From Chloranthus sessilifolius (taxonomy: Eukaryota > Streptophyta > Magnoliopsida > Chloranthales > Chloranthaceae): a stretch of DNA of 64,000 nucleotides. The translations under genes were made by a program, and so were the position numbers. The DNA is taken from contig CM037597.1 in NCBI GenBank assembly GCA_021018995.1, positions 35,404,936 through 35,468,935 of the forward strand, in the 5' to 3' direction. The notes under the pieces were generated by a model. The model was not told the DNA's origin, made no database searches, and worked only from the letters and a program-made list of their open reading frames with translations. Below, piece by piece: positions 19,021 to 46,487 of this stretch (its first letter is position 1; each line of letters opens with the position of its first letter).

Positions 19021-19124
19021 ATCATGAAATATCACGAAAACATGAAAATTAAAGCACAAAGAAACAAGTAAATAGAGAATCGAAGACTAACACGGATCGC
19101 ACGACGAAAATGAAAAATTTTGAA

Positions 19125-20228: not shown

Positions 20229-21893
20229 TGTTGGTACGTGCTTTTTTTGGGCTCCTCTCAGTTCCCGTTGAATCAGTGGCTCAAATTCTGTCTAGGTGAA
20301 CTTTAGCAATGCGACATTTAGAATAAATAAATAAAGAGGAATTTTCTAGGAAGGTTCCTAGTTTGTTGCGATCGCCAGCTGCAGATATTTAACAATGCTG
20401 CAACACGTCAGTGATCACGCTGTGAAGTGGGTGTAGGTTACTTCTATACTGAATCGTCCGCCCGTTAACGTCAGTAGCAGTGCTTCTCTTAAGTTTAGTT
20501 AGTTTAATTCTCCTCTTGTTTCCCTTTGTAATTATAATTCTGGTCAGTTTAGATTTCCCAATTTTATTATTATTGTGCTATGATTGTGTGGGCTTATTGA
20601 GGTGAGTTATATTAGTGTTCTGATGCTGTCAAGAGTCCGATGAGCATCAAGGTTCTGGTATTACTAAAAGTCCAATCAGTTTCAGTCTCCTATTGGTACT
20701 AGGAGTGCATATCTATCAGTTCCAATAATATTCTAATTAAAATTAAGCATGCTAATTGTATTGGGATTCTAATTAAAGCAATTGTAGTAATTTTACTATA
20801 ATTCTAATTGAAATAAAAAAAATTGACTTTCTCTACGAGCCTAATTATAGCAATAAATTTAATTTTCTATTATAATATAAAAAAAAAGGACTGATTTATC
20901 TACGATTCTAATTATTGATGGATTAATGATGGCAAAATGTAACTAATCATGAATAAACTAAATTTCTTAGAATTTGGATTTGGAATAATCGATTAACTAA
21001 ACTAATAGAAAGGAAATTCTAATCTAATACTCTAATAATTATATCAAGGCCTAATTAATGTGAATAATTAATTATGTCTGGATATAAACTAATTAAAGCA
21101 ATTTATTAATTCTAAAAAAAAATCTAAAAAAAAAGGGGGGGGGGGGTTTGGGCCTGCTATGCTAAGGAGGATTGGCCTCATTCCCGAGTACCCTCCGTAA
21201 GCTCTCTTGGGCAAATCGGGTAGCTGAGATTAAAGAGAAAAAAATTAAATTTTGAATGTTAAAGTAATATTTTTTTTGGGCTTTTCAGAATTGATTTCAG
21301 AATAGCAATTGCGAATTAGATTGTAAACTAAAATTATAAGACTAAAATTAATATTTAGAATTTTTGAAGGTATTGAAATAAAAAACTAAAATTAAGGTTA
21401 AATTTTTAAGACTAAATTCGCGTTTGAAATCGAGAAATTAGGCCGTATGATTAAGGACTGGTTCTGAATCAAAGGATTAGGACCAAAAAATAATGATAGG
21501 ACTATGAATCGTGATTTTAGAATTGAATTAATGCCTAAAATTGATATATTGGACCAATGGATTAATGATTGGTTCTAGAAACAGAGAACTAGAACCATAT
21601 ATAAAGAATTTCGGTTTGAAAAGTGGTGCTACGGTCTAAGACTAGAAATAAAATTAAAAATTAATAGATCTAGAGATTATAAGCTACGGTTGGAAACTAA
21701 AATATTAAATCCTTACCTAAGGGGGGTTGGGGCTGCAGAGAGAAATCTCGAAAAGTAGAAGCTTGAATCTAGAAATCATGGTTAGGTTCTATGGGTTCGT
21801 GCTCGAAATTCTCTGGTTTCGAAATTTACCATCTCCTCTCTCAAAATTTGCAGCCACTTTTCGTCGAACCCCCGGGTGAGTTAAGAAAAAAAT

Positions 21894-21903
21894 CTTTTAT
21901 AGG
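21894..21903 (-). promoter_or_regulatory. LTR TATA box of element C (3' LTR copy)
   Basis: The minus strand reads CCTATAAAAG about 2.3 kb from the LTR end. It is conserved in D's LTR (51063-51071, plus strand) and recognisable in C's 5' LTR (45814-45822). It lies downstream of a GCGC-rich region and should drive the genomic RNA. Confidence 0.6.
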
Positions 21904-21996
21904 TTTTTCTCCAATTACGCGCTTGTTTACGGGCATTTAATTGGATTACACACTTGAATTCTGGTGCTTATTCGCTTTGAGTCGGTCACCGACTCG

Positions 21997-22001
21997 GTGA
22001 G
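21997..22001. repeat. Target-site duplication GTGAG, left copy
   Basis: GTGAG here and at 23686-23690 flank the solo LTR. The uninterrupted site is present once in C's other LTR (CTCAGTGAGCGACC near 45915). Confidence 0.95.
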
Positions 22002-23685
22002 TGTGCAACCGTGAGATTTGTGACGATCCCATCGCGGCGATGCGCTCGCTTACAAAAAATATAGAGTCGCCACCCGAAGCTTTTGGTGTCCCAGGAAACC
22101 TAAATCATTTTTATGAGCACCGAAGTGCTAAAAATAAGACTCTGAATCCGGTCCACACCAAAGGTTCTTGGGTAGGGGCTTCGGTTATCGATTGGGAAGG
22201 TGTTAGGCACCCAATCAACCTGCTTAAAGCGGTCTCTACTAAAGGCCAAAATAAAAATGATGTAAAAGAAAAGGAAATGGCTTCCTCTTACCCAAATGGA
22301 TCTTAAATCCTATTTGTGCCCCTCCGTTCCTATAAAAAATTTGGCGGCGTAACTGCACAAATGGGAGGATGAGAAGAGCTAAAGAAAAGATAGGAGAAGA
22401 AAGGGGAGAGCCGGAGCTCTCGGGCCCTTGTAGCACCATAGAGGAGCCTTGCGTTGGCTTGCTTTGATGAGCTTTTGAAGGCTTGTATGGTATGGAATGG
22501 GGTTCGAACTCCTAAGGCTTGAAGCTAAGAGGTAGAGAAGGAAGGCTAAGGGATTACACACACCTAACCTAAAGGCTTTTAGTGAAATGCTAAGGTCTAA
22601 GGGAGCTTTTTGAAATCTGGAATTTGTATGGGAAGTGTGCACCAAAGGGAGAAAGATCTTCTCACTTTAAGCTCTTTCTCTCTTAGGCCAAAATTCTCAA
22701 CCCCTAAACAAAGGCGTGGGGCGCTCTATTTATAGGAAATGGGTGGATTAGGAGGCTACTTAAGAGTTAAATAGGTTTAGCAATTAGGTAATCTCACATC
22801 TAAGGATTCCTAGGGTTTTTGGAGCCTTGAGATGTGTGGAAGGGTCCTCTAATGGTGGATGATGGGGTGAGGCCTTAAGCCACTTAAAGGGTTGCAAATA
22901 GGGTGCAAATGGGTGCAACAGAACTAGCAAAACACACCCCAAAGTCGAGGTGGTCAACAAGTCAAACCCCAATCATGAAATTTGGGGCAAAAACTAACAG
23001 TTAATATTGATATACTTGGCGCAACTAATAGTTGCACTAGGCAAATGTATAGTAAAACAGTGCCTGAAAGTTGGCTATCCGAGGTGGGGTCCACAATTAA
23101 TACTAGCGCAACTATTAGTTACACCAGGCTTAAATCCTGGGAAAAGTGGCCTGGTGCAACTAATAGTTGCGCCAGGTAAAATTATCACTGACACAACTAT
23201 TAGTTGTGCCAGGCCATTTCTGGGGAGAAATAGCCTGGCATAACTATTAGTTGCGCCAAATCCCTAGGGGGGACCCACCTGATTTTACTCTTTTGTCCTT
23301 CGAGTTCGGACCGCCGTATCTTTTGATGTACAACTCCTACTGGGAAGATTCTTAGACCGTTAGAAAGTTGACACCCTCTACTTTTTAATGGTATGAAATT
23401 TGTTCATAGTAGATGGCCGTAGCTAGTTTCGGTGCACCCCTCCTCATCCATAGCCTAATAGTGTTCGATTTAGGGTTCAGAATGAGTTCTAAGGGTCGAG
23501 ATTGGTTTCTAAAGGTTCAGGGTAGGTTCCTAAGGGATCTATGGGGATTTCTTAGGGTTTGGGGTGATTCCTTAAGGGTTCTAGGATGGTTCCTAAGGGT
23601 TTCATACATGCCATCAAAAGCCCAGAAGTGTGCCTCTCTTGAAAGGTGTTTCGATCGGGCCTTGGGTCAAATTTGGGTGTCTACA
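22002..23685 (-). mobile_element. Solo LTR of the A/B retrotransposon family
   Basis: Minus-strand start TGTAGACACCC at 23685, end CGGTTGCACA at 22002. It matches B's 5' LTR (55379-56997) over its length, including AAAGCGGTCTC..., the leader-like text ACCAAAGGCTCTTGGGTAG-like, and the palindrome array. It is 1,684 bases, flanked by GTGAG duplications. There is no internal sequence, so it is the product of LTR-LTR recombination. It is the youngest traceable event in this nest. Confidence 0.95.
23013..23258. repeat. Array of five GGCGCAACTA-TAGTTGCGCC palindromes (solo LTR)
   Basis: Units lie at about 23015-23041, 23103-23129, 23150-23175, 23188-23213 and 23233-23258. Each pairs a GGCGCAACTA-like arm with TAGTTGCGCC around a single A or T. 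Substitutions are scattered (CACAACTA, GTGCAACTA). The same array occurs in B's LTR and again in B's leader. Confidence 0.9.
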
Positions 23686-24260
23686 GTGAGCGACCGGCTG
23701 ACTTGCTCAATGAGTCTCCTAGTCCTAACAAATTAGGAGTAATTGTGTGCATGTTATCATGCGCTCAATCTGATTAAGCGTTGAACCTGAAATATTTAAT
23801 CAAGGAAATGTAGGGGTCAAGGGTAGTAAGACTAGGTCGGGCGTAGGCCAATTACGCGCTGGTGGTGAAGCGCTCAATTTGATCACGTGTCCTATTTCAG
23901 CCGCGTAATCAAGTCTCTAATCGGTCTAGGAAAGGAAGTTTGGTCTGAAAGGTGGACTGGTCATGCGCTTGTGGTTCTGTGCGCAATTGAATTGTGCGCT
24001 GGGTTTCTAGCACATAATTCGGGGTTGTCCAGGTATGGTCTCTAGAATGAAATGCAAGACTATTATTTCAATCTGCATTCCAGCTATATATTGCTGCTTA
24101 GTATATAGTCTCCCTACACTGGGATCTGAGCTACATAACTATTGTTTCAGCCTGCGTTTAGCCATGTACTATTGCATGGTCCCACACCGTAGGTTAAAAG
24201 GGTTAAAGGTTGATCGAACAAGTTTGTATACTCTGAGAAGGCAAAATGAGGGTGTCTACA

Positions 24261-24275
24261 GATGCCCCTCTTCGG
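24261..24275 (-). other. Polypurine tract of element C
   Basis: The minus strand reads CCGAAGAGGGGCATC directly before the LTR start TGTAGACACC. The same purine run precedes D's 3' LTR (50376-50389). It is the expected plus-strand primer site. Confidence 0.8.
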
Positions 24276-26530: not shown

Positions 26531-26559
26531 ATTTTTCTCAAATCGGGATCAAACTTTGT

Positions 26560-26940: not shown

Positions 26941-27480
26941 CTATATAAGCATGGGAGGCTTCATTTGTTTCTCATTCTCTGGTTTAGTCTCGAGTATTGA
27001 CTTTTCTGAGTGTTCTGGTGTTTCGACGATATTGAGCAATCTAACCGTCAGATTGGGATGGGGTTTCTTCCTATATTCGTTATTTCACATGATCTTTGCC
27101 CTGCGGTGATGCTCGAGGACAGTATTGTCTTTGGAATGAGGGTGATGGCCTTCACACCATTCTTTTCTAGGGAGCAGTGGAGGCAGCGTTGCAGAGGCAG
27201 TAGAGGAGGAGAAAATGACAGGGAGAAGAGGTGCTGTAAATGGAGGGATGTATCCCTAACCCATTTTCTATCGCTTCTACCAGTGGAAACATTTCTGAAG
27301 CCTTCGATTGGACGTTCTGCTCCTCGCTTTGGCTCATTGTAGTTTTTGTTTTCGTTTTGGGTTGTATGTTAGGTTCTAGGATTCGTTTTGGGTTGTAATT
27401 CCGGAGGTATGCCTCCGGCGATATTATAAAATTTTGAATTATGAATAAAGGGGCATTTTTTGTAGTCTATTGTGCTCAGT
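26941..27480 (+). other. Second antisense transcription unit of element C (TATA box, small frame, 3' hairpin, AATAAA)
   Basis: A TATA box CTATATAA starts at 26941 (D: minus strand, about 48023-48034). After about 160 bases a small frame begins at ATG 27108 with MLEDSIVF and runs 78 codons; in D the equivalent starts MLVDDIIL and stops after about 45 codons. The sequence around TTTTCTAG/GGAGCAGTG looks like a splice acceptor in both. A hairpin CCGGAGG-TATG-CCTCCGG (27401-27418) and AATAAA (27443) mark the probable 3' end. Conserved signals with a poorly conserved frame suggest a short or non-coding RNA, or a decayed small gene. No homology is recognised. Confidence 0.45.
27401..27418 (+). other. 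3'-end hairpin CCGGAGG-TATG-CCTCCGG
   Basis: A perfect 7-base stem with a 4-base loop TATG, followed within 30 bases by AATAAA. In D the copy is GGAGG-CATA-CCTCC at 47535-47548 (plus strand), with CTTGTAA downstream on the minus strand. Related hairpins occur at 28660 and 33681 in C. Confidence 0.75.
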
Positions 27481-28244
27481 TAGTTGGTTTAAATTAATGG
27501 ATTAATTAGACTTATCTAATTTGTTTGACGTAGTTTTAGGATTTGATTTAGCTTAGTAATATAGATTTTAGATTTACCCAGGGTTATCTCGAGATCAGTT
27601 TACTTTGTTTAGAGGGTTTAACTGGTTCTATCGAGCTTGTTTGGGGCATTTTTTTCAGTGATCTTGAACAAGTTAGATTTTGTTTTATTTTGTTTAAGGT
27701 ATTTGGTTTCATTTAAGGTATTTTGTTTGAGATTTTTTTGTTTGAGGTTTCTGTTTGAGATGATACTTGTTAATAAGGTGTGGGTTTTCATGGGTTCTAG
27801 ATGGTGGTTGGGTGTTTCAATCCTATTGGCCTATCTAGACTTGGGGGATTTGTGGTTTTCAGAGGGGCAAGTGTTGTGTGATTATTGGTTTATCTAGTTT
27901 TGTCACAGATTGTGTTTTTTTTCTAAAAGAAAAGGGGGTATGTGTATGGTTTTGGATTCAATTAGATTGGGAAGGTTTCAAGATGTGTGACATTTGTTTA
28001 TGGGGCATGGTTTATAAATGCATGAGTCTAAGGTTTTTGGCTTGTTGTTTCCTTATTTATTTCATTTTAAGTTTAAAGATTAAAAGTTTTTAGGGGATAT
28101 CTTGTGTTTGTAACTTTGGGCATTTTTTTGTTCATTAATGTCTTTTATTCCTCTCTATTTCGCTTCCCGGGTATTGGACCCGAGGATTTGTGTTTATTAA
28201 GTAGATTATGAGAATGGACGGGATTGTGAATTCAGGGTGATACT
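27481..28244. other. Spacer with GGGGCATTTTTT motifs
   Basis: No gene is visible. GGGGCATTTTTTT (27640) and TTTGGGCATTTTTTT (28110) and pyrimidine/purine-rich runs are present. It is co-linear in reverse with D's 46800-47490. The palindrome-like CGGGTATTGGACCCG (28168) is also kept in D as CGGGTCTAATACCCG. Confidence 0.5.
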
Positions 28245-28358
28245 AGGATTGGTGCTATCAATCCAACTCGAAGTGCCTCTCCATCGGGTGAAGAGGTGGA
28301 GGAGAAAAAGGTGGTAGAGAGGAAACCCAAGGATAAGACAAAGTCAGAGTTCTCGTGA
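28245..28358 (+). CDS. Small antisense exon-like frame, conserved in element D
   Basis: After an acceptor-like ATTCAG the frame reads GDTRIGAINPTRSASPSG, continues with EEVEEKKVVERKPKDKTKSEFS, and stops at TGA. D encodes the same end (EEKKVEQRKPKDKTGSEFS, stop, minus strand about 46768-46640), also after an AATACAG acceptor. Conservation of the lysine/glutamate-rich C-terminus and of the stop between diverged copies suggests a last exon of a small charged protein. The upstream exon is not identified. It may be chance conservation between repeats, since only two copies were compared. Confidence 0.3.
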   Translation, partial: RIGAINPTRSASPSGEEVEEKKVVERKPKDKTKSEFS

Positions 28359-28659
28359 CTGATGCCTATTTTTCCTCGGTAGGCTCTGCAGATTCAGTGT
28401 TACTTGCTCCTCATTTTTTAATGTGTCCAAGGGGAGCTTCTAACAGTGGGTCCATAGGTCATGGGTGGCTTTCTGTAAGCCACTCTCTCCTTTCTGCCAG
28501 CTCGAGGTGAGGGGAAGATGTCGTCATGGTTAGAATTTGTTCAGGGTGCGTTCCTCCTTTGGGCTTCTCCGAGATCTCTAGTATCTCGAATAAGTCCGGA
28601 TTCGGGCATTGCTTGAATGTGCGGATTTTAACGTTCTTATTTTTAAGTTGTATATTCAA

Positions 28660-28671
28660 AGGGTATGCCCT
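28660..28671 (+). other. 3'-end hairpin AGGG-TATG-CCCT
   Basis: A 4-base stem with loop TATG, followed by CATTGTAATG; TTGTAA is a plant far-upstream polyadenylation-type element. D retains GAAGG-CATA-CCCTC at 20072-20085 (plus strand view). It probably ends the transcript containing the 28245 frame. Confidence 0.55.
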
Positions 28672-28679
28672 CGGTGTGC

Positions 28680-29255
28680 ATTGTAATGATTTTTATTAAT
28701 CTATGAAGTGATTATATTTTAATTCCATTTGTGGTTATTCAATAATCTTTTTTGTTTTATTTAATTTATATTTCGTTTGTCTCATTGCGGGTGTGATGCT
28801 TTTGGTTTTAATTTGGTTGTTTATTTTAGATCTGGGTGCGTGTTAAGGATAGTTTATCTTCCGTTTAGTTTTGAGTATTATAGAGGCAATGTGAGTATTT
28901 AATCTTATTGAGGACACGTGAAGGTGTTGGGGGCATTTTTTTGGTTGAGGAAAGTGGAGGGGAGAGCATTTTCCTTGCGTTTTAATTGTTTATTGTGAAG
29001 TAAAGGGCATTTTTTCTGGGTTTTCTTTTGTTTATTTTGAATTAAGGGGCATTTTTATTTATTTATTTATTTATTTTGTTTATTTTGAATTAAGGGGCAT
29101 TTATTTTTATTTTTTTGGGGTTGTAAATTTTCTTTAAGTTATGAGTGTTTTAGGTTGGTCTTATCAAGGGCGTGATTTAAGTTGATAGTGAGTGTCAAAA
29201 TGCTTAACTTAAAGTTGGAGTTTACTGTCCTGGGCATGTGAAAATTTTCATTTTT
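28680..29255. other. Spacer before the PMD promoter
   Basis: No gene is seen. At least four GGGGCATTTTTT-type motifs occur (28930, 29007, 29045, 29095) together with a (TTTA)n tract at 29052-29080. Confidence 0.55.
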
Positions 29256-29259
29256 CTGA

Positions 29260-29610: not shown

Positions 29611-29618
29611 TATAAATA
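29611..29618 (+). promoter_or_regulatory. TATA box of the antisense PMD gene, element C
   Basis: TCTATAAATAGTTGAAACC; TATAAATA begins at 29611. It is conserved with D (minus strand 19125-19134). Transcription would start about 30 bases downstream, opposite in direction to the retroelement's genomic RNA. Confidence 0.75.
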
Positions 29619-29789
29619 GTTGAAACCTTTCATTTTTGTCGCATTATCCGTTTTAGTCTTCGATTCTCTAGTTTCCTAGTTTTCTTGTGCTTGGGTTTTC
29701 ATATTTTCACGATATCTCGTGATCTGGTCGTCCATTTGAAGCGCCATTTCTTCCATTTACTTCAGTTTTTTAATTTCTTTATTCCGATA

Positions 29790-32700
29790 TAGAGGGTGAG
29801 GGTAGTGTCAAGCATGAGGTCATTATTTTCGAGTTAGAGAGGATGTTGATGACGGATGTGGGTGAGACTTCTGAGGCTCAAACTGGTAGTATTGCCATAG
29901 AGGAGAATATTAGGGAGATGGTCGTAGAGGAGGTCCCTGAGGGTGACTAGATGGTGGTCAGGGAAGAGATACCTGAGGTTGAGCCGGGGGTAGCTGAGGA
30001 GGAGAGCGAGAGAGCTGAGAGTGAGCAGGGTGAGGAGCAGCCAGGCGCAGAGCCTCGGGATCGCAAGCACTATCCGCTGGAGGATTTCTTTGCTAGAGGG
30101 CAGGTAGGTCCCTGTAAGCAAGAGTTCGTTTATTTTCCTAGGCATTCAGGTTATGACATAGGCTTATTAGGATCTGTAAACCCTTCTAATTTACGTCAAA
30201 CCTGCATTGATTATTTGTTGCGTGCTCGCTCATGCATCATGCTCGCATCTAGAAATAGGTAAGTTTATGTTCAGTGTTCTCATCATGTTTTGTGTGCCTG
30301 TTGTAAGTTGTCATAGCGCTTGAGACATGTCTTATTCATTTTCAACTCCTTAATTCATTTATCTTTCATCATAAGTATGTGTTAGTCTTATTTTTATTGT
30401 CATTCTTTTGGTCGTTGTGGTCGATAGGAGCCTCCGCAGCTGGCTATCAGCTCGGCATGGGGTGAGTCTCATGCCTGGTATCGTACCTTATCGGAGTTTC
30501 AGCGAGAGCGGCTGGTGTCTTTTGATTTTGGGATAATTCTAGAGTTGGAGCCCTTTCAGGTAGACCGAGGCCTAATCACAGCGATCATAGAGAGGTGGAG
30601 CGAGAGGCATCAGACGCTTCTCTTCCCAGTTGGTATGTTGTTGTCAAATCCAGAGGATGGAGGGACAGTATTTGGAGGTGTGGGAGGAGATTTTGGGAGT
30701 CCCTTATAGGTCGAGTGGATCAGGGTCAGGTGTGGTTTGGGTTACTTGGTTCTTCGATACATTTGCGAGTGGCTTCATCCCTCCGAGGTGTCATTCGGAG
30801 GTGATGGCGCCCTATGAGGCGCGGTGTGCGATAATGGCAGGTCAGGAGCCCATGACCGAGCCAAGGTTTGCTGCAGATAGGGTGCTCCGAGCATTTCTGA
30901 TGCACTTCTTTGGTGCAGTACTCTTTTCATCTTCGACTCGGGGATGCATCACCGGGTTGTTTTTGATGGTTCTCAGGGATCTGGATCAGGTCCATACCTA
31001 TGCGTGGGTGCGGCAACGTTGGCGCATCTCTATGAGCAGTTCTACCGTTAGGGACAAGGCATCACGTTGATCGGAGGTTTCCTTCCGTTCCTCCAGGTGA
31101 GTCTTAGTTTAATTGGTATCATGGTGGTCCTTTAGTTTTGCTAATTTTTGGTCTTAGTGGTTTTTAATGGTCCTTTTGTTTGTTATTACTGCTTTTTTTT
31201 ATAGTTTTAGGCGTATGATCATTTTGCTTTTCTTCGTCTGGGGTTTCGATGGGGGTTACATTCACGTTTCCTCGGATGCACGTGTGGAGAGAGGTGTAGA
31301 AGGGTTGTCAGTGGTCTACTGATCTTCAGACCGCGCGGGGCCTCTTCGAGGATATGCATGCGGGGCAGGTATATATCGCCATGTTTTCGTTTAGCTTTAT
31401 TTTGTTATGGGATTCTTAGGCTTTGTTAATGGGTCAATTTGTTCATTTGGATAGATGATCTAGAGGCCCTACGATGATGTGGAGGACGCAGTTGAGGCGG
31501 TGATTGAGTCTGGCCGGCCCTTCTTCAATGTGGACATATGGGTCCATTGTTTTGAGAGGGTAAAGAGGATTCACACCTCTCGAGCAGAATGGCAGTTGGG
31601 GCTCGCTCAGGGAGTCCCTCCAGGGGTTAGCCATAAAGTAGTGAAGAGGATGACCAGCCCTCAAGGCCAGAATTTTGCAGAGCGGATGGCGCTCCAGATA
31701 GCCAATTTTAGAGCTGGGGGGACCAGGGTGTCATGGGGCGCATGACGAGGCGGATGTAAGAGAGTATAGGAGGTGGTTCAGTGCGTTGGGTGGTGGGTGC
31801 CTCTTCACACGTCCCTTTCATGGCAGTGACTCTTTCACGATCGGTGGGCTAGAGACAAAGTCGACATTGAGGGAGAGGTTGGCCGCATTGGAGGAGGGCC
31901 ATCTCACGGTGAGTGTGCGGGGGGCATTGGATGCTCTCCATAGGGCGATGGAGCAGATGGGGCATGCTCCTCGTCCTGATGAGGAGATGTTGCACTCTTT
32001 GACCAACTCAGTCGCTAGGGCTAGGGCGATGGAGGATGAGTTGGGAGTTCGATTAGCGGAGGCTCGACAGCTCCTGGTGAGTTAATTTATGTTCGTTTTT
32101 CTTATTATGATGTGGACTTAGTTTTTTGGACGTTCTGACAAGGTTATGGTATCTCGCTTTATTCTGTTTTAGACAGTCCGAGAGGGAGGGTGAGGTTGCT
32201 CGTCAGGCGGCCTTGCTAGATGTTTACCGCAATCAGCAGGGAGCTGACTAGGAGAGAGTGGCCACTCTACGCTCTGAGATTGATCGATTGGTAAGTGTCT
32301 TCATAAGTATGATTTCGCTTAATTGTTAACATTGTGGGCTCGTCGACTGATACGCTTATTATTATTTGTAGAGAGCCGAGCTGGCTGTCGGAGGTCCTGC
32401 TCTGGCATTTGATCCATCTTTAGTTGCTTCCTCTAGTCAGGAGGATCTAGCGATGGCTCAGCTTTGGGCTGAGCTAGAGCATTGGGTAAGTTTCGTCACT
32501 CTTTCAGTTTACTTGTGTCATCATAGCGGTTTGTTAGGTGTTATTGTTATGTTTTCTTAATAGTTTACTAACATCATGTTGGCGTCTCAGCACAAGGTTG
32601 CTGAGGACCTCCGGACGAGGGAGGTGACTGCTGCCTCTTTATGCCCAGAGAGTCAAGTATAATCCATGATTTTTGATGTGATTCTATTTAGGTTGTTTTG

Positions 32701-33615
32701 TCATGTTTGTCTCTGAAATACTTTGCGTTGTTTTGCTTGGTTTTTTCGTGCAGGTTATTTCGGATTCCGCTCCCGAGGCTCCTCCTCAAGGATCCATTCC
32801 TATCCCTACTCAGGTATGTTTTAATTCTTGTGTTTGTAGTCTATTTGTCATTATAGTATTTTTCTGATGCATTTATCTGCTATTGTTGTAGCCACCTACG
32901 TTTGTTATTCCTTTCATGCCGCCTATCGATCCCATGATCGCCGAGACAGTCTAGCACCTTCTGAGGGAGAGGGCGGATCTGGTATGGTCTTTTCTTATTC
33001 AAAATTTTTTTTACTTTCAAATATGTATATGTTATCTCCCTTTGACTTGGTATGGTTATGTAGGTTTGTCAGCTTGAGGAGGCGCGGCTAAAGGTGACGC
33101 GAGCATGCGCCACTCCAGAGGCAAGGCGGGTCCTCGGAGAGGTGGAGAGTCGTGAGGATCTGATGATCGAGATGATGGTCACACAGAAGACTCATGCCGA
33201 GGCATTGGAGGCTGCGCGTCGGTAGGTGTAGGCAGAGATGCAGGTCGCCCTGGGTCGGATGCAGTATCTTCTGGGGAGGGAGTGAGGGGCGCGAAGATTA
33301 GCTAGTCGGTTTGGGGGATTAGAGTTGACGGATACGAGGTCTTCATCTGGGCAGTCTCGTCACACATCGCGTGATCGTGCCAGGAGTGATACTCGCAAGG
33401 ATTCTATCACTCGTGGGTATCCAGGTGGGGATCCTCCTCATTCTCGATCGAGGCGGACTGTCAGTCAGGCAAGTGAAGGGGGCTCCGTAGTGGGGTCGCA
33501 TCGTCTAGAGGTTCCAGCGACTCCCGACGTCGGGATCATTTTTTTAGAGGACCAGTCTACGGACCATCGAGCCGATGATATTGGGGATAGTGGTGCTCGA
33601 CTGTCCCAGCGATAG
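29790..33615 (+). pseudogene. Plant-mobile-domain (PMD, aminotransferase-like) gene, ten exons, antisense in element C
   Basis: Exons read from GT-AG borders and comparison with D and E: 1 (about 29790-30103), 2 (30428-31096), 3 (31205-31368), 4 (31455-32076), 5 (32173-32290), 6 (32372-32485), 7 (32591-32656), 8 (32754-32813), 9 (32892-32981), 10 (33064-33615). Exon 1 is acidic. Exon 2 is the PMD core (VDRGLITAIIERW, LEVWEEILGVPYRS, FLMHFFGAVLFSSSTRG, LRDLDQVHTYAW). Exon 4 has a helical ERLAALEEGH...LHRAMEQMG stretch. Exon 10 is Arg/Ser-rich (SRDRARSDTRKDS). PMD proteins of the MAIN/MAIL type act in the nucleus in gene and transposon silencing; that role is not shown here. Breaks: a stop in exon 1 (29948), about 57 bases missing near 30656, a one-base loss near 31010, and stops in exons 3, 5 and 10. 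Confidence 0.85.
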
Positions 33616-33678
33616 CGTAGGGAGTAGGTGTGTGCATGTGTATGTTTTGTCCATTATGAGTGCGCATTGTATATACAG

Positions 33679-33692
33679 GGGGGTATGCCCTC
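33679..33692 (+). other. 3'-end hairpin GGG-TATG-CCC after the PMD gene
   Basis: GGGGGGTATGCCCTCG followed by ACAATTGTAAAG. It is the third member of the TATG-loop hairpin set in C. It lies 65 bases after the PMD stop codon with a TTGTAA element next to it, so it probably marks the mRNA 3' end. Confidence 0.55.
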
Positions 33693-33795
33693 GATGACAA
33701 TTGTAAAGAAAAAAAAAATGGGAAAGAAATTTTTTTACACATATATATTGAGATTTTGAGTTTAGGTGTACCTGATCAGCTGCTTTTCTTTTAGT

Positions 33796-33914: not shown

Positions 33915-33940
33915 GTAATGCCATTAGTAATTTTTGTTCT

Positions 33941-33964
33941 CCCCCTTGCTAGTTGTCAAGGGGG
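33941..33964. other. Inverted repeat CCCCCTTG / CAAGGGGG
   Basis: Perfect 8-base arms separated by CTAGTTGT. On the sense strand of C the first arm reads as a purine-rich GCAAGGGGGAGAAC, so it could serve as an internal polypurine tract or as a stem-loop. Confidence 0.5.
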
Positions 33965-35264: not shown

Positions 35265-36649
35265 CTAAGGGTAATATTTTCTAAAGTACATGGCATTCCA
35301 CAAGCTAGGGAGTTCTTCCCAGTCTTGGTTCGTCAGTTTGTAGGCATTGCCGGGGTATGCGGCTGTTATGACGTAAAGGCCTTCCCAGTTCAGTTTCAGT
35401 TTTCCTTTTGGATGGGCGTGTTTAGAAGGCATGACCTTCTTCAAGACTAATTCTCCAATATTGAAGGCTTGTTTAAGGACTTTCTTATTGTAAGCCTTGG
35501 CCACTCTCCTCTGATATACCTAAGCGTGATCAGATGCCCTTAGACGTGTATCATCGAGCTACTCTAGCAGTGTGATAGCTCATCATCGAGTTGAATCTAT
35601 AAGGATGGCGCTTGTATTTCATAGGGTAGGACGGCCTCCATCCTGTAGGTAAGGAGGTAGGGAGTTTGGCTGGTGGCCATACGAATAGAAGTCCGATAGG
35701 CCCAGAGTGCTTCTGGTAGTCGTTCAGGTTAGTCGGCTCCATTGCTTGTTTCTACTGTACGTTTCATAATTCGAATCAACGTTTTGTTGGTGGCTTCTGC
35801 TTGTCCATTTCCTTGAGGTTAGAATGGTGAGGAGTGGCGTAGATCGATGCTGAACTTCTTGCATAACTTCTTTGTCGTCTTTGTAATAAGCTGCGGTCCA
35901 TTGTTGGTGACAAATATCCGGGGCACTCCAAACCTAGTGATGATATTGCGCATGATAAACTTTATGAGCGTGGAAGCAGTGATTCTGACGTATGATTCGG
36001 CTTCTGCCCATTTAGTATAGTATTCGGTTGCTGTAAGTATAAACACGTGCTTACGAGTGTTCCCAACTATGTCTATGAAAGGTTCGATGATGTTGAAGGC
36101 CCACATCGAGAATGGCCATGGCGAGGTCATAGTATTTAATGCAACTGATGGAGCTTTGATGACTGCAGCGTGTTCTTGGCATTGCTTGCAGAATTGGATG
36201 TAGAGGTGGCAATCTCTTATCATTGTCGGCCAGAAGTAGCCTTGTCATGTAATTTGATCGGTAAGTCTCTGTCTACCGGCATGGGCACTGTAGGCGCTAG
36301 CGTGTGCTTCTCGGATGATGTATTGTCCTTCGACCGTTGTAACGTATCGTAGCAGTACTCTTTTAGTGAAGGCTTCTTTGTATAGTGTTTCGCTAAGAAT
36401 GCAGAATCTGGCACATCGGTTCCTTATAGTCTTTGATTCGATCTTTGTAGCATAGGGAGGAATGTACTGATGTTCGAGGAAGTTCCAAATGTCGAAATAC
36501 CATGGTTGCCAGTCGTCGGTTGGTGATCTTTCAAATATGAACATAGCGATTTCAGCTCTTGACTTGTCATCCTTTTCCGGAGTAATTGCTTCCTTTGATG
36601 TCGTGCTCGTGGGAAGGATTGGTAATTCTCTCTTGACGGTCCATGCCAC
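35265..36649 (-). pseudogene. Integrase, element C (catalytic Asp residues lost)
   Basis: Order on the minus strand: a pre-integrase region, zinc finger (REAHASAYSAHAG ... CKQC), catalytic core, then a C-terminal domain with GKLKLNWEGLYVITAAYPG, the GPY/F-like module. No chromodomain follows, which fits the non-chromoviral Tat/Athila clade. In the core the first acidic position reads AFNIIEPF (Asn codon 36092-36094) and the second VTNNGPQ (Asn codon 35903-35905), where gypsy integrases have Asp. Only the Glu (GQAEATN) remains. Stops also occur near 36240, 35820 and 35540. Integrase would join cDNA to target DNA; this copy cannot. Confidence 0.88.
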
Positions 36650-36699
36650 AACATGGGCGGGTACTGTTAATTTTTCTATGATGAAGGTTTTGGTACTTT

Positions 36700-38863
36700 A
36701 TCCAAGGGGTATCTGAATTACTGAGGCTAGTATAGCTAGGGAATCTGCAAGCTCATTTTTTGATCTAGGGATTTACGTAAAAGAAATTCTTTCAAATTTG
36801 TTTACTAAATATTGAGCAGTTTCTAAATATACCATTAGTCTCCTTTCCTTAGTTTTCCATTCTCCTATGACTTGTGAGATTACTAGCTTAGAATCACTGA
36901 TCGTTTTTAATTGTTTTACTCCTACTTGTAGTGCTGCTCGTAGTCCAGCTATGAAGGCTTCATATTCGACAACGTTGTTAGTGACTGGGAAATCTAGTTG
37001 AAAAGCTTTAGGTATGACAACTTCTTACGGGCTCAGGAGGACTATCCCAATGTCTTTTCCTTTGTAGTTTAGAGCGTCGTCAAAATAAAGGGTCTATGAA
37101 GTCTTATCGGGCTCTTCGTTATGAATTGTGAACAGGTCTTCATTGGGAAAATCCGCGTGTATAGGTTCATCATTTGGGAGTGGGAGGTTTGCGAGATAAT
37201 CAGTGAGGGCTTGTCCTTTAATCGATTTCTGCGTGACGTAAGTGATGTCGAATTCTTGTAATAGCATGTGCCAGCGAGTGATCTTTTCAGATGTTGCGGG
37301 CTTTTCGAATACATACTTCAGAGGGTCCATTCGAGCTAGTACTAATATCTTATGTTCTCCGAAGTAGTGTCGCAACTTGGTCGAAGCCCATATCAGTGTG
37401 AGACAGGTCTTTTCCATGGGAGTGTATTTTTGTTCGTATTCGACCATTGTCCTACTAAGGAAGTAGATAGCCTTCTCTCTCTTACTATCTTTTTCATATT
37501 ATCCCATAATTACTCCCATTGATTTGTCGTTTGCTGAAAGGTAAAGGATTAGGGGTCTTCCAGGAATTGGGGGTAATAGTATTGGTGGGTTAAGGAGGTA
37601 CCTTTTAATGTTATTAAAGGCTTGCTAGCACTAGTGATCCCACTTGTACTCGGTTCTTCCTTTAAGTAGTCTATAGAAAGGATTGTATCTGTCTGAATGT
37701 TGGGAGATGAATCTCCTGATAAATTGCAATCTTCCTATCAGGCCTCGTAATTTTTTGATATCACGGGGAGGTGGCATCTTAAGGATGGCTCTAACTATAG
37801 CAGCGCCAACTTCATTCCCTCGCTTGCTAACTATAAAGCTGAATAACTTTCTGGAAGTGACTCCGAAGACACATTTCCTTGGGTTCACTTTCAGCTGATA
37901 TTTTTTACCTCTTTATAGTACCAGTCGGAGTGCTTCAACATGTCTTGCCTGCATTTGGGACTTCACTAATATATCATCGACATAAACTTCTACGCATTTA
38001 TGCATCATATCGTGAAAAATAGTCATCATGGCGCGTTGATACATAGCTCCAGCGTTCTTAAGCCCAAAAGGCATGACGACGTAACAGTAAATTCCCTAGG
38101 GTGTGGTGAAAGAAGTCTTCTCTTGGTCGGACTTAGCTAATTTGATTTGATTATATCCTAAGAAACCATCTATAAAGGATAGCATCTCATGCCCAGCAGT
38201 GTTGTCGACTAGAGTGTCAATGTGTGGAAGTGGGAAGTCGTCTTTTAGGCATGCTTGGTTGAGGTTTTGAAAATCAATGCAAACCCGTACTCTTCCATCC
38301 TTCTTAGTGACAGGTACTATGTTGGCGACCCATTTAGGATAGTGGACAACACAGATGAATTTGGAGTTGTGTAACTTGTCAACTTCCTCTTTGACTTGAA
38401 GAGCTATTTGTGGGTGCATCCTACAAAATTTCTGCTAAACAGGCTTTACATCGGGTATTAAGACAAGACGATGTTCAACTAAATTCGAGTTTAAACAGGG
38501 CATATCTTCATAAGACCATGCAAAGGAATCGAGGTGTTCTTACAAGACTTATGCAATTTATTGGAGTTCCTTAGGATTGAGCGTTGCGCTAATCAACAGC
38601 TTTTTGGGTTTCTCTTTAGTGCCAAAATTAAGTTCTTCGACAGGTTTCGCGGCAGCTCAAGTTTGCTCATCGAAATGCTTGATAACCCATTGGAGGTCCT
38701 GCATCCCCTCGGCGACTGGTGTTCCTTCCTCCTCATCAGTAAGCTCATATATTGTGAAATTACTACACTGGAGATTCGATTTTGTGAGAATTAACCCTTC
38801 ATCGATGTAATTTATGACAGAGAGATCTTTCGTCAAGGCTACTGATTCTTCTCTCAAAGTCAT
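36700..38863 (-). pseudogene. Reverse transcriptase with two RNase H domains, element C
   Basis: The pre-RT segment has FAWSYEDMP. The RT palm shows VANIVPVTKKDGRVRVCIDF, LPHIDTLVDN, MPFGLKNAGAMYQRAM and the catalytic box YVDD at 37973-37984. The first RNase H includes YFLSRTM, TLIWASTKLRHYFG and WHMLLQEFDI. The second, archaeal-type RNase H (about 37080-36720) shows LYFDDALN, TNNVVEYEAFIAGL, ISDSKLVISQV and NELADSLA, so its Asp-Glu-Asp-Asp set is visible. Dual RNase H is a Tat/Ogre trait. About ten stop codons interrupt the frame (for example after TSFTTP at 38096). Confidence 0.9.
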
Positions 38864-40015: not shown

Positions 40016-41275
40016 CCAAGGCAGAGGCTAATGTTATACGAGCTAAACTCCGCTTGTGAGGCATCATCTTCTTCCCACATTGAGTATAAATGTTCTCTAT
40101 TTCCTTGCGAGGTAGCTATGTGGAAGTCCTCATCATTAGTGGATTCCCAATCTTTTACTTGTGGGTCAGGCTCGGGAGGTTCTTCCTTCCTCCCCTCTAT
40201 GGGCTCTTTGAGATCAAACAAGGGTTTGACTCCTTCAAGGGGTTTATCAATGTCACCTTTTAGGTTCATCAAATCACTGAATACTTTAGCCATTTATTCA
40301 ATTTCCACTTCTTGAGATTTAGTGAAGGATACCTCTTTCTGCTTAGGTACATTGGCTTTCTCAGTGGTCCCGTAGACGAAGTGATCATATAGAGACCATT
40401 TTGGTGAGGTAGGAAACAAGTCGACTTGTGAGCCGTCCGATTGGTAACCCAACCCTATGTGCTTGCGTATTTTTGTTGGGACGACAGGTCCTATACGACC
40501 TTGCTTATTCTTTCTGAGTCCGGTATGAAGAATGTATCCAAGTTGGTACATAAGATCCCATCCCTTTGTTGCAGTGGGGTTGATGTCATAAAGCTTGGCA
40601 AGGTTTGGACCAACCACTCTCCTCATCAACTCTGGTCGACACGTCAAGGGAGAACTAGGATGGGTAGGGGGCAGACTTCCGCTACGATTGTCTCCTCTAG
40701 GATTCGAGTCCTTTGAATATGGCCTATATTCAACACCTAATCATGAGCCATTGGTATGCTCACCGCATAATCAGTGTCTATCTCCTGGAGGGGTGCATCA
40801 GCGTATATACGAATGATGGAGTCCTCATATAGGAACTTGATGCATTGATGATATGTAGACGTGACAGCCTTCATTGATTCTAACCACTTTCTTCTAAGAT
40901 GAGATTGTACGTGCTAGTAGAATTAGAAATATGGAAGGTGATGTCCTTTGTCACAGGTTCAAGGCAAACCTGGAGTTTAATAGTCCCTTTAACAAAATGA
41001 CGTGAGCTGTCATAAGCTATGAGTGACAGGGCCGAGAGCCTGGAGTCTTGTTCCTTGTATTCGAGCGTCTTTAACGTCGTGAGCGGATAAATATTGAGTC
41101 CTGCTCCAGTATCCACTAACCCATGAGGTACAGAGAATCCTCTAATAATGACTGTGAGATATATAGGAGTGGCACTCCCACGGAGTGACTCCTTAGGCAC
41201 GTCCGTGTCGGTGAACATAAGTGCTGGAGGTTGTGCCATGACCGAGGTGATTTGATGAAGCTCATCTAGGGTCAT
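39900..41275 (-). pseudogene. Aspartic protease and G-patch region, element C
   Basis: The protease has the active site LVDTGAGLNIYPL and the C-terminal STYNLIL motif (41275 to about 40880). A linker of about 80 codons with breaks follows, then a G-patch (40647-40530: GWDLMYQLGYILHTGLRKNKQGRIGPV). After it comes an acidic region with KEEPPEPDPQ. The protease would release gag and pol products. G-patch modules bind nucleic acid or helicases in other proteins and occur in several Tat-lineage elements. The DTG triad is intact here, unlike the DNG of the A/B family. Confidence 0.85.
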
Positions 41276-41948
41276 GTCCTCGTCTACCTATGTGTCCTCA
41301 AGTGTCCTTACCAACAATCGATGATGATCAGGGGATTTCTTGATGAGCTCTAATATAGATATCTGAGCTGGGATCTTTTGAAGGTGCTATAGTAGGTCGT
41401 ATTCTTGCCCTGGCTCGAGTGTAATCTTTTTGCATGGCCGATGAGCCTTAGGCGCGGGTGGTTGAAGTGGTTGAGGTGCGGGAATTAGCAGAGGAATGAT
41501 GTGAGGTGGGGGCAGAAAGTGAACCTCTCTTTCTCTTGCGTTCCCGTCTAGTTATGGTGCATTCGTGCAATCCTTATTTCGAGGGAAAGGAGGAGGTGGG
41601 TAATTGGTTTCGGATTTGAGAATTGGGCAAGTCGCCTATTGACTGAACCTAGCATGGCTCGACATCAATGTATTTGCAAAGCGAGTAAAATTAGAGGTTA
41701 GAGCGTGGGCCTGCACGACGCTGTTCCAAGGTGGGAGGTACTACGTGTAATCCTCTTCTTCTAGGAAAGCTGAGACTAGGGTCTCATGCGGGTCATAAAG
41801 TTTTTCTCGCTCGCCTTCCTTTATGTTTAGTGAGCAATCAACCTTCGTTTCGTTTTCTAGGTTGGGGCTCTTCCAAGTGACACTTTCTATCCACACAACA
41901 ACTTGGGCTACAGTTTGAAGAGCATGATCTCCAAACTCGGGTTCAGAA

Positions 41949-44055
41949 TTAGATGAGGGGGGGTGGTGAGGGTGTCGATTCAAGATTTGGAGGGGTTGAA
42001 GGTTCTGGTGGGGAACGATGGAGAAATGGTCTCCTGGCCTTAAAGGTGTGGACTCGTATCTGGGTGAATTTTGGATAGGGTGGTAGGTTTGGTGGAGCGA
42101 TGCGAGTGATCAAGGTCAAGGGATGTGGGGGTGAAAAGACTCCCACAGGGGTAGTAGGAGCGTTGGAGGGTTGGATGCGAGTGATTAAAGCGGAGGGTTG
42201 GAACGAGGGTTGACTGGAGAGATCTACGGTAGTGACCTGGGCCGGTGCCCCTTGGTTGTGATTAGGCATGGGGTTGTTTATGATCCCCAAGTTTTGTTGG
42301 GGTTGGTTGTCACTAGGGTTAGGATTCCTCAATGCTTCCCAATCAATTTGGTTCCAATCGCTCATGTCATAGATCACGTCTCGAGGACCTAACGGTCCTC
42401 TAAGCTGTGTCCAGTATATTGATGGAATGCATATTATTTACTGTAGTCTAGATTTGTAGGCCATGGGCGAGGTTTTTTTGGTGGGAATTGGAGGAGGTTC
42501 TGGGTGTTAAGAAATCGAAAAATATTGGGGATTCTATCAGGTAGAGGGGGATAATGTTCCCGCCGTAGTTGGTATGGGCCTTTAGTTGGATTAAAATTTT
42601 ACGGTGGGGGGACATTATTATAATTTGACGCGTGGGCCGGTCAGTTCTGTGTTGCTTTTTGGTTCTGATAGGTATTGGGGTATTGATTTCTATTTTGGTA
42701 TTGACCTTGACCCTGGTTTTGGCCTTGGTTCTGGCTTGCGTATTTGGATTAATTAGCACCATGATTCTAGTTGGTATACCGTTGTTGGTTTTGATTTTGT
42801 CCGAAGTTGCGCGGTTGGAAGCTACCGTTATTAGAACTTTGTCCTTGGTTAACAACGGTGTTGACCTATTCAATCCCTAAGGCTTTCTTATTATTTTTTG
42901 ACTTGGATTCGCTAGAGGAGCCTATTTTGGACGTAACGATAGATAGGGCAAGGTCTCCACCTTTAATGTGTCGTGCTAGTCGGGATGCCCGATAATGAAG
43001 TGCAATGAAGTCAGGGCAATCGCTTATGACGAGCACGCTCTTTAACAGTTCCCTAGTGTTGTCAATGATAATGTCAACTGAGTCCTTTTCTTTCATTGAG
43101 GTGCCGGTCCTCGTAGCAAGTTTTCTCCATCGAGCGACGAAGTCAACAAACTCTTTATCAGGTCCTTGCCTGGTGGCCATCAGGTCACTAAGGCTGACTC
43201 TCTCTTGGACAAAGTATTTGTATTGGTCTAAGAACTGACCAACTAAATCGTCAAAGGTTTCAATCTTATAGAGCGAGAGTCCCGCGGACCAGTCTAAAGC
43301 TTCCCCTTCTAATGAACGTTGAAAGTAGTGAATGAGAAGTCCCTGGTTGTCACGTATGGGCCGATAGTCATTGCAAAAGAGTGCCAAGTGATGGCTCGGA
43401 ATTCCCGTGCCATTATATTTGGAAAATTTTGGCGGTTTGAATCCTATAGGTAGGTTAAATTCGACATCCCTGCAAAATTTATCAAACCCGAATGAATAAC
43501 CAGGGTGCTCCCTCTTGGCCATGTACTCGTCAAGCATTTTTGGGAGATCTTCGATCTTAATGGTATTGTCCTTTGGCGCAAGCCGCAAGCTAGCCCTATC
43601 TAATGCATCGTCATTAAAGAATGTGTGAGCATGTTGCCATAATGATGCGGCATGAGCTGACATTGTACTCGGGGTAGGCGGTGGTCTTTCTTGTCGCTCT
43701 TGCTCTTCCAAATTGTGTTGTCCCCTAATGGTTTCATATGCAGCAGCCAATCCTCGAAGCAACTCTTCGGAGTCATCGCCTCCTCTTTGTATTCTTTGGA
43801 TGCTAAGTTATACGATTTGTTGAGTGGTGTGGGTTTGTTCAGAGCTATTATTTCTATCGTTATGGCTATTACTAGCATGCGGTGTAGAGAAGAGGTTCTC
43901 TTATTCACCAGTCATGTGAATTTCGGGTGTCATGGGCTAAAGGTATAAGGCGACTCTTCCTTGTATGCGAGGTTGTCATTAAATCCTCACTGCGGAGGGT
44001 CTCCTAAACTTACTGTACGTATGCCAGACATCTCAAGTCTTTGACGAAGACTCAT
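41949..44055 (-). pseudogene. gag, element C
   Basis: The probable start is ATG at 44055 (MSLRQRLEMSG). After a stop and a frame change it continues through TPEIHMTGE to the 298-codon open stretch 43762-42866. This contains the gag domain: FKPPKFSKYNGTGIPSHHLA, FQRSLEGEALDWSAGLS, FLDQYKYFVQ, FVDFVARWRKLA. A Gln/Asn-rich tract (QGQNQGQGQYQNRNQYPN) follows near 42700, then a degraded knuckle (YAFHQYTGHSLED) and a proline-rich tail beginning MSDWNQIDWEALRN (to 41949). It would coat the genomic RNA. Frame changes and stops after 42866 make it a pseudogene. Confidence 0.85.
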
Positions 44056-44142
44056 ATATCTAAAAAGGAATCTAAATGATACGATGAAAAAGGAAATAAG
44101 GAAATAAAATAAAACTAACTATCTATGAAAAAGTTTGCGAAA

Positions 44143-44162
44143 GCGTCCCATCGCGATTACCA
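44143..44162 (-). other. Putative primer-binding site of element C
   Basis: Three bases after the LTR end (ACCAACA, then GAC) the minus strand reads TGGTAATCGCGATGGGACGC. It starts with the TGG needed to pair with a tRNA CCA end. I cannot name the tRNA with confidence. The core ATCGCGATGGGAC recurs, in reverse sense, many times in the 3' part of the element. Confidence 0.65.
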
Positions 44163-44165
44163 GTC

Positions 44166-46487
44166 TGTTGGTACGCGCTTTTTCTGGGCTCCTCTCGGTT
44201 CCTGTTGAATCAGTGGCTCAAATTTTGTCCAGGTGGACTCTAGCGATGCGGCGTTTGGAATAAATAAAAAAAGAGGATTTTTCTAGGAAGGTTCCTAGTT
44301 TGATTGCGATCGCCAGCTGCAGATATTTAAAGACTGACGCAATCGGTGATCACTAGTGAAGCGGTGTAGGTTACTTCTATCATCGAATCGTCATCTGACG
44401 CGTGTGATGCTTCTTTTTAGTTTAGTTAGTTTAATTCTCCTCTTGTTTCCCTTTGTAATTATAATTCCGATTAGTTTAGATTTCTCAATTCTATTATTAT
44501 TGTGCCCTGATTGTGTGGGCTTATTGAGGTGAGTTATATTAGTGTTCTGATGTTGTCAAGAGTCCGATGAGCATCAAGGTTCTGATATTACTAAAAGTCT
44601 AATAAGTTTCATTCTCCTATTGGTACTAGGAGTGCATATGTATTAGTTCCAATAATATTCTAATTAAAATTAAGCATGTTAATTGTACTAGGATTCTAAT
44701 TAAAGAAATTATAGTAATTTTACTATAATTCTAATTGAAATAAAAAAAGACTTTCTCTATGGGCCTAATTAAAGCAATAAATTTAATTTTCTATTATAAT
44801 ATCAACAGAAACAACAAAAAAAAGGACTGATTTATCTATGATTCTAATTATTGACGGATTAATGATGACAAAATGTAACTAATCATGAATAAACTAAATT
44901 TCTTAGAATTCAGATTTGGAATAATCGATTAACTAAACTAATGGAAAGGAAATTTTGATTTAACACTAATAATTATATCAAGGCCTAATTAATACGAATA
45001 ATCAATTATGTCTAGATATAAACTAATTAAACAATTTATTAATTCTAAAAAAAAATGGGGGGGGGTTTGGGCTCGCTATGCTAAGGAGGATTGGACTCGT
45101 TCCCGAGTACCGTCTGTAAGCTCCCTTGGGTAAATCGGGTGGCTGAGATTAAAGAGAAAAAAATTGAATTTTGGATCGTAAAGTAATATTTTTTTTGGGC
45201 TTTTAAGAATTGATTTCAGAATAGCAATTGCGAATTGGATTGTAAACTAAAATTATAAGACTAAAATTAATATTTAGAATTTTTAAAGGTATTGAAATAA
45301 AAAACTAAAATTAAGGTTAAATTTTTAAGACTGAATTCGCGTTTGGAATCGAGAAATCAGGCCGTATGATTAAGGACTGATTCTGAATCAAAGGATTAGA
45401 ACCAGAAAATAATGATAGGACTGTGAATCGTGATTTTAGAATTGAATTAACATCTAAAATCGGTATATCGGACCAATGGATTAATGACTGGTTCTAGAAA
45501 CAGAGAAATAGAACCAGATATAAAGAATTTTGGTCCGAAAAGGGGTGCTACGGTCTAAGACTAGAAATAAATTAAAAATTAATAGATCTAGAGATTATAA
45601 GCTACGGTCGAAAACTAAAATATTAAATCCTTACCTAAGTGGGGTCAGGGCTGCGGAGAGAAATCTTGAAAATTAGAAGCTTGAATCTCAAAATCATGGT
45701 TAGGTTCGGTGGGTTCGTGCTCGGAATTCTCTGGTTTCAAAATTTACCGTCTCCTCTCTCAAAATTTGCAGCCACTTTTCGTCCAACCCCCGTGCGAGTT
45801 AAGAAATTTTTTTTTTTATAGGTTTTTCTCCAATTACGCACCTGTTTACGGGCATTTAGTTAAATTGTGCGCCTGGATTTCGACACTTAATCGCTTTGAG
45901 TCGGTCATCGACTCAGTGAGCGACCGGCTGGCTTGCTCAGTGAGTCTCCTAGTCCTAACAAATTAGGAGTAATTGCGCGCATGTTATCATGTGCTCAATC
46001 TGATTCAGCGTTGAACCTGAAACGTTTAATAAAGGAAACGTAGGGGTCAAGGGTAGTAAGACTAGGTCGGGCGTAGGCCAATTGCGCGCTGGTGGTGAAG
46101 CGCTCAATCCGATCACGTGTCCTGTTTCAAGCACGCAATCAAGTCTCGAATCGGTCTGGGAAAGGAAGTTTGGTCTGAAAGGTGGACTGGTCATGCACTT
46201 AGGGTTCTAGCGCAATCGAATTACGCGCTGAGTTTCTGGCGTGTAATTCGAGGTTGTCCGGGTATGGTCTCTAGAATGAAATGCAAGACTATTATTTCAG
46301 TCTACATTCTGGCTATATACTGTTGCTTAGTATATAGTGTCCATACGCTGGGATATGAGCCACAGAACTATTGTTTCTGCCTGTGTTCAGTCATGTACTA
46401 TTGCATGGTCTCACATCGCAGGTTAAAAGGGTTAAAGGTTGATCGAACAAGTTTGTATACTCCGAGAAGGCAAAATGGGGGTGTATA
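44166..46487 (-). repeat. 5' LTR of element C
   Basis: Matches 20229-24260 without its solo-LTR insertion, 2,322 bases. The 3' end (44166) is ...GTACCAACA. The 5' end reads TATACACCC at 46487 where the 3' LTR has TGTAGACACCC, so the terminus has suffered a small change. The TATA box lies near 45814-45822 (minus). A long plus-strand frame near 46117-46527 is a shadow and is not kept in D's LTR. Confidence 0.9.

Follow-up and report, generated by a model that had tools for sequence, protein, structure and literature searches.

A predicted ten-exon plant mobile domain gene lies antisense within a giant Ty3/gypsy-type retrotransposon of Chloranthus sessilifolius

Introduction

Retrotransposition is expected to strip introns from the genes that an element carries. 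How an element might nevertheless keep them is the question raised by a 64,000-nucleotide stretch of DNA from Chloranthus sessilifolius (assembly GCA_021018995.1, contig CM037597.1, positions 35,404,936 to 35,468,935; hereafter the window), in which a long terminal repeat (LTR) retrotransposon, element C, bears a plant mobile domain (PMD) gene on its antisense strand. The window is made up of nested Ty3/gypsy-type elements and looks like plant DNA, and two older, partial relatives of C, elements E and F, hold parts of the same gene. C is probably a dead copy of a giant Tat/Ogre-type Ty3/gypsy family that carries a spliced antisense PMD gene with a promoter of its own.

Element C inserted by retrotransposition

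Element C spans 20229-46487 and lies on the minus strand, with LTRs of ~2.3 kb and a target site duplication (TSD) that matches perfectly on the two sides (Table 1). Its span of 26,259 bp comes to 24,570 bp once the solo LTR nested in it (1,684 bp) and the 5-bp TSD of that LTR are subtracted. The flanks of C join into one relative, E, of C's own 28.5-kb region, the joined halves being homologous to C at 26.7-28.8 kb, so that the empty site is visible. C was inserted by retrotransposition, as its LTRs, TSD and empty site show. The polypurine stretch GAAGAGGGGCATC next to its 3' LTR also adjoins the 3' LTR of E, at about 50377-50389. Comparison of the LTR pair (44165-46487 against 20229-24260 less the insert) gives 213 differences over 2,308 aligned columns, a Kimura two-parameter (K2P) distance of 0.100. 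Under substitution rates that we take to be 1.3e-8 or 7e-9 per site and year, this distance corresponds to an age of about 3.8 or 7.1 million years, that is, some 4-7 million years. The preliminary description of the locus had called C a complete ~24.6-kb retrotransposon, which stands for its structure (LTRs, TSD and length) but not for its activity, given the stops and frameshifts in the PMD gene and a pol region in pieces.

A Pfam scan of the coding regions of C, in 10 stop-free pieces, returned above the Pfam cut-off, in element order, gag, reverse transcriptase (RT), RNase H (RH), a second RNase H (RVT_3) and the integrase (INT) core, with pol fragmented. The order gag, protease, RT, RH, INT is that of Ogre/Tat elements, the protease being recognized by eye only, and the additional RNase H (aRH) between RH and INT is a feature by which Ogre/Tat elements are defined. 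A second RNase H in this position is the mark of Ogre and Retand in angiosperms, and a PMD is present in 57% of Ogre elements (PMC6317226); G-patch, to which C has a weak match, is listed among the extra domains common in plant Gypsy elements (PMC9289625). Domain order together with the PMD points to the Tat/Ogre lineage for C. Eight further pieces were scanned with Pfam, of which the four from 25.6-27.4 kb gave no match, and Rfam at gathering thresholds gave 0 matches in the window.

A predicted antisense PMD gene with ten exons

The PMD gene sits between integrase and the 3' LTR of C, on the strand opposite to that of the element. This antisense position between pol and 3' LTR is fully shown for C, and the PMD is also antisense to the orientation of E and F. 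Matches to the Pfam family PF10536 were obtained in four of the nine pieces scanned (two of C, two of E), the other five being without a PMD match; only one in E (17620-17838) lies above the curated cut-off, with 39.6 bits against 34.9 (4.7e-10).

For the exon model, C, E and F were aligned on the PMD strand, and exon-like blocks bounded by GT and AG were delimited. The model comprises ten predicted exons and nine introns, all in phase 0 if, for each exon, a copy with the local frame intact is used for the reading. Eight of the ten exons of C are multiples of three in length, exons 3 and 4 being shifted, and T content is 47% in introns versus 25% in exons. In C, GT or AG stands at all 18 predicted intron ends, compared with at most 7 of 18 when the set is slid by 1-60 bases either way. 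Ending exon 1 at 30258 instead would leave it out of phase with exon 2, and this alternative was rejected, even though C and E agree well over 30104-30258.

E ends at the start of exon 6, so that only introns 1-5 can be checked; these five introns are still held, with 10 of 10 splice ends. F retains exons 3-8 together with portions of exons 2 and 10, which covers introns 2-8, not all with both ends, and here 10 of 13 ends are kept (5/7 donors, 5/6 acceptors). The count omits E from the exon 6 donor on, where it is not homologous, and F past the exon 8 donor, where it is not alignable. Splice junctions are common to the three copies, mostly at the same positions in the older, partial E and F. 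Of what had been described beforehand, the PMD gene antisense to the element is confirmed by PF10536 on the opposite strand between integrase and 3' LTR, and ten exons fit with nine GT-AG introns; that all three copies keep the introns at the same positions holds for the five introns of E and for most of the intron ends covered in F.

A search with exons 2-3 of E as query (one broken reading, with X at stops) found two proteins among 1,120 candidates. The better match, P0001, listed in EukProt under a Trinity transcript name, shares 44% identity over 254 residues. Its sequence crosses the junction of exons 2 and 3 without a gap and passes from exon 3 directly into exon 4 of C (68% over 40 residues) and of F (58% over 45 residues). 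In a wider search, with 7,997 candidates scored, at least six proteins were found, and P0001 was far ahead among the matches listed. This protein supports the predicted exon model, not expression of the element family. Its predicted structure, from a 34-row alignment, has a mean predicted local distance difference test (pLDDT) score of 47, too poor for a fold search.

Transcription signals and a second antisense unit

The PMD gene is preceded by a putative TATA box conserved between C and E and followed by a 3'-end block that resembles the end of a second predicted antisense unit in the same region of C (Table 1). This second unit lies upstream of the PMD gene, and its TATA box, at 26942, is also kept in E. 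Directly downstream of that box, the block 26960-27023 resembles the PMD leader (29629-29692), and the 3' end of the unit (28648-28689) resembles that of the PMD gene (33667-33709), both ends containing GGGTATGCCC; in each comparison none of 300 shuffles reached the score, versus 300 of 300 in the one control pair. The last coding stretch of the second unit, read by eye, ends ...EEKKVVERKPKDKTKSEFS in C, with a basic C terminus and the same stop in E. From these likenesses, two or more antisense units with similar ends are predicted in the 3' region of C. The self-promoted layout proposed in the preliminary description agrees with the conserved TATA box and with the similar promoter block at the second unit, the promoter itself being a prediction from sequence.

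On the antisense strand, short motifs resembling hairpins (GGAGGTATGCCTCC, GGGTATTGGACCC, GGGTATGCCC) are repeated near 27404, 28169, 28661 and 33680. The motif at 27404 has no significant likeness to the PMD end (148 of 300 shuffles reached the score) or to the end at 28661 (38 of 300); among the three end-motif pairs tested, only 28661 and ~33680 are significantly alike.

The conserved TATA box opposes the LTR promoter, and the antisense unit could alternatively act as RNA, pairing with the genomic RNA and regulating via double-stranded or small interfering RNA, an idea published for antisense open reading frames (ORFs; PMC7264820). However, an RNA-only function does not predict the codon-level selection described below. 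We consider this explanation improbable, with the proviso that both roles can coexist.

Selection on the PMD codons

Codon positions 1, 2 and 3 of the predicted exons differ by 0.212, 0.183 and 0.333 between C and E (third versus first plus second, p 3e-10), by 0.195, 0.208 and 0.288 between C and F (p 5e-5), and by 0.202, 0.168 and 0.311 between E and F (p 2e-6). Exon 9 was excluded from the comparison, as were 20 bases of exon 4 and the beginning of exon 10, and stop codons were masked (15, 17 and 12 in the three pairs, respectively). The ratio of nonsynonymous to synonymous divergence (dN/dS, Nei-Gojobori method, NG86) in the PMD frame is 0.29 for C-E, 0.34 for C-F and 0.28 for E-F, with a range of 0.22-0.34 over the exon sets tried; it is 0.84-1.23 in the other forward frames and 0.69-0.81 in the C-E introns. 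All copies have decayed since they inserted, so the constraint that acted earlier should have been stronger than these values indicate. The codon comparisons show the signature of purifying selection, acting on the PMD codons before the copies died. Neutral evolution of the exons, which the preliminary description had named as the outcome that would tell against it, is not borne out by ratios of 0.28-0.34 among the copies.

The region could instead be a neutral fossil of an old capture, its exon model a pattern read into decayed DNA, and several observations do weigh against our reading of the locus. The PMD sequences of C, E and F all contain stops or frameshifts; C has stops in exons 1-5, 9 and 10 and is frameshifted in exons 2-4. 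Not every exon shows the third-position excess, which is missing from exons 3 and 6 of C-F. Summed divergence between C and F is 23.8% in exons versus 27.6% in introns, a small gap, and the corresponding C-E sums include non-homologous columns past exon 5. The reverse frames give dN/dS of 0.37-1.09, one of them being low (0.37-0.51), which blunts this control; the low value presumably belongs to the frame in which degenerate sites coincide. The ten exons were delimited by eye, with the first intron in doubt, and the P0001 gene may be intronless or not borne by a transposable element (TE). In addition, no primer binding site, which in Ogre/Tat elements is complementary to tRNA-Arg, was recognized in the sequence after the 5' LTR of C (TGGTAATCGCGATGGGACGC). 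Against a neutral fossil stand the overall third-position excess in all three pairs, the low dN/dS of the PMD frame relative to the other forward frames and the C-E introns, and the kept splice junctions, at two of which P0001 agrees. This alternative is already largely refuted, and we give it a slim chance only.

Relatives of the PMD protein

A PMD is common to the host proteins MAIN and MAIL, and MULE transposons have captured host genes of the clade PMD-C (PMC5418596), so that C could have recently captured a host MAIN/MAIL gene in antisense. However, the same gene is found in E and F, and the exons of C differ from theirs by 23-24%. A further protein search scored 7,990 candidates and found at least 797, the best 120 of which were listed. 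In a tree of 19 rows, comprising the PMD reading of the window and 18 of 125 proteins, without a PMD-A or Arabidopsis reference, the window PMD and P0001 form a pair (100/100). The remaining 17 rows, of which 10 carry the name MAIN-LIKE, fall outside this pair, and long branches were flagged. PMDs of Gypsy elements form clades of their own, PMD-A1 and PMD-A2 being exclusive to them (PMC5418596). We consider recent capture very improbable. As to the link drawn earlier to PMD proteins of the MAIN/MAIL group, the tree does not uphold it; its long branches and lack of a PMD-A reference make it suggestive only of a gene separate from the MAIN-LIKE proteins.

Neighboring elements

C lies in the orientation opposite to E and F, and E meets F at E's LTR end, inside the PMD gene of F. 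That the intron-bearing copies spread by DNA-level duplication, which would make intron retention uninformative on retrotransposition, is hardly credible: related copies do lie close together in one window, and E and F are incomplete, with their own insertion mode partly visible, but C has two LTRs, a perfect TSD, an empty site in E and the opposite orientation, and the meeting of E and F at an LTR end likewise argues against it.

Related to the solo LTR, an LTR at about 55373-56995, followed by TGGCGACTCTGCTGGGGA, opens a further element that has inserted into F's PMD gene. This TGGCGACTCTGCTGGGGA, after an LTR placed at about 55378-56995, is presumably complementary to tRNA-Arg. Tandem repeats are present before the 3' LTR of C (118-bp unit, 24842-25071) and in the last element of the window (67-bp unit, 57157-57344; 48-bp unit, 3.6 copies with 95% match, 59416-59587).

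Table 1. Features of elements C, E and F and of the nested solo LTR, in window coordinates
Feature	Position	Strand	Basis or remark
Target site duplication CTCTT, left copy	20224..20228		perfect match to right copy
Target site duplication CTCTT, right copy	46488..46492		perfect match to left copy
3' LTR of C, interrupted by solo LTR	20229..24260	-	self-alignment to 44165-46487
Polypurine tract GAAGAGGGGCATC (minus strand), adjoins 3' LTR of C	24261..24273	-	same stretch beside 3' LTR of E
Second antisense unit	26942..28690	+	TATATAA 26942-26948; stop ~28356-28358 shared with E; 3'-end motif 28661
TATAAATA box of PMD gene	29611..29618	+	12-base block CTATAAATAGTT identical in C and E
PMD exon 1	29843..30103	+	acidic N terminus; end is least certain boundary
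PMD exon 2	30428..31096	+	domain core; 53-bp and 1-bp gaps relative to E; PF10536 below cut-off in C pieces
PMD exon 3	31205..31368	+	alignment; P0001 match
PMD exon 4	31455..32076	+	alignment; P0001 match
PMD exon 5	32177..32290	+	alignment
PMD exon 6	32372..32485	+	alignment
PMD exon 7	32591..32656	+	alignment
PMD exon 8	32754..32813	+	alignment
PMD exon 9	32892..32981	+	C only; not alignable in F, past end of E
PMD exon 10 with terminal stop	33064..33615	+	alignment
3'-end block of PMD gene, contains GGGTATGCCC	33667..33709	+	similarity to end of second unit
Integrase, in pieces	35268..36697	-	core above cut-off; zinc-binding and SH3-like below
Second RNase H (RVT_3)	36776..37024	-	Pfam; between RT_RNaseH and rve
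Reverse transcriptase and RNase H, in pieces	37097..38434	-	Pfam; piece 37634-37912 without match
Weak G-patch match between protease region and RT	40297..40740	-	15.8 bits, cut-off 22
Protease region	40883..41287	-	VDTGA by eye; no Pfam match
gag	42869..43807	-	Retrotrans_gag 3e-7
5' LTR of C	44165..46487	-	self-alignment to 3' LTR
Element E, PMD exons 1-5, first bases of exon 6 and upstream DNA	16380..20223	-	E older, plus-oriented; C inserted into E
Rest of element E, 3' LTR about 50390-52883	46493..52883	+	alignment
Element F PMD fragment (exons 3-8, portions of exons 2 and 10)	52884..55372	-	E inserted into F
Nested solo LTR, 1,684 bp, TSD GTGAG, not part of C	22002..23685		TG...CA ends; 76-83% identity to 55373-56995

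Discussion

The retention of introns in C, E and F can be accounted for if the PMD gene, with ~10 exons and with a TATA promoter and 3' end of its own, were a standing cargo between integrase and the 3' LTR. Introns are not recognized by the splicing machinery in the complementary RNA. Since the genomic RNA of the element would be the complement of the PMD gene, its introns would read CT...AC, remain unspliced and survive reverse transcription, so that the gene would be copied whole. Such survival best explains the introns common to C, E and F; the earlier proposal that antisense introns outlast copying is in line with these common positions and with the insertion of C by retrotransposition. 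An antisense-template argument for intron retention has also been made for Penelope elements (PMC3846280).

In the ancestors of C, the PMD gene would have been transcribed from its own promoter, spliced and translated, and transcription and splicing in this species are likewise predicted. The protein would most likely act in the nucleus as an accessory factor, tuning host silencing or transcription of the element itself. A counter-silencing role of transposon-borne PMDs has already been proposed in print (PMC8616336), as has accessory regulation for antisense ORFs generally (PMC7264820). A bolder proposition, which we regard as unlikely, is that the antisense strand provides a safe place for spliceosomal genes, here a tandem pair with duplicated promoter and 3' end, including a selected ten-exon PMD that antagonizes MAIN/MAIL1-PP7L silencing.

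Already known are PMD genes of Ogre/Gypsy elements, accessory ORFs in antisense and Penelope copies that retain introns. New here is the second predicted antisense unit, with a promoter block and a 3' end resembling those of the PMD gene. In the open literature searched, with supplements outside its scope, we found no multi-exon antisense gene in an LTR retrotransposon. Ikeda and colleagues applied Fgenesh to PMD loci associated with TEs (PMC5418596), so their data may include gene models with introns.

If our reading of C as a dead member of a family with a spliced antisense PMD gene is true, an LTR element can retain ordinary spliced genes by carrying them on its antisense strand, in this case a gene with about nine introns, in three copies and under selection. 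The locus would also offer a concrete object for asking what transposon-borne PMDs do and why host silencing proteins share the domain.

The HBZ gene of the retrovirus HTLV-1 is spliced, with one intron, and uses an LTR promoter. Like the PMD gene of C, it is an antisense gene of a retroelement (PMC11963269), but the PMD protein is unrelated to it. The Arabidopsis silencing proteins MAIN and MAIL1 share the PMD (PMC5418596, PMC7156037); they are, however, host genes of clade PMD-C, whereas the window PMD stands apart from the MAIN-LIKE rows in a tree without an Arabidopsis protein.

Ogre/Tat elements with a PMD (PMC6317226, PMC5418596) resemble C in their giant size, in the second RNase H between RH and INT and in the PMD accessory gene, but the PMDs reported there are uninterrupted extra ORFs of at least 250 codons, and we found no ten-exon antisense gene described there. 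The antisense ORFs of the aORF-3R type (maize Grande gene23, RIRE2, Retand TRP28; PMC7264820, PMC11963269) likewise lie between pol and the 3' LTR and are conserved across copies, and the Grande gene is reported to have its own promoter; they encode a different domain, and the word "intron" is absent from the text of both papers as available. A parallel for intron retention comes from Penelope-like elements of bdelloid rotifers, retroelements that spread intron-containing genes, with an antisense template as one explanation, and that the abstract contrasts with all other retrotransposon types (PMC3846280). Penelope mobilizes host genes in trans, whereas the PMD gene of C would be a resident cargo of an LTR element.

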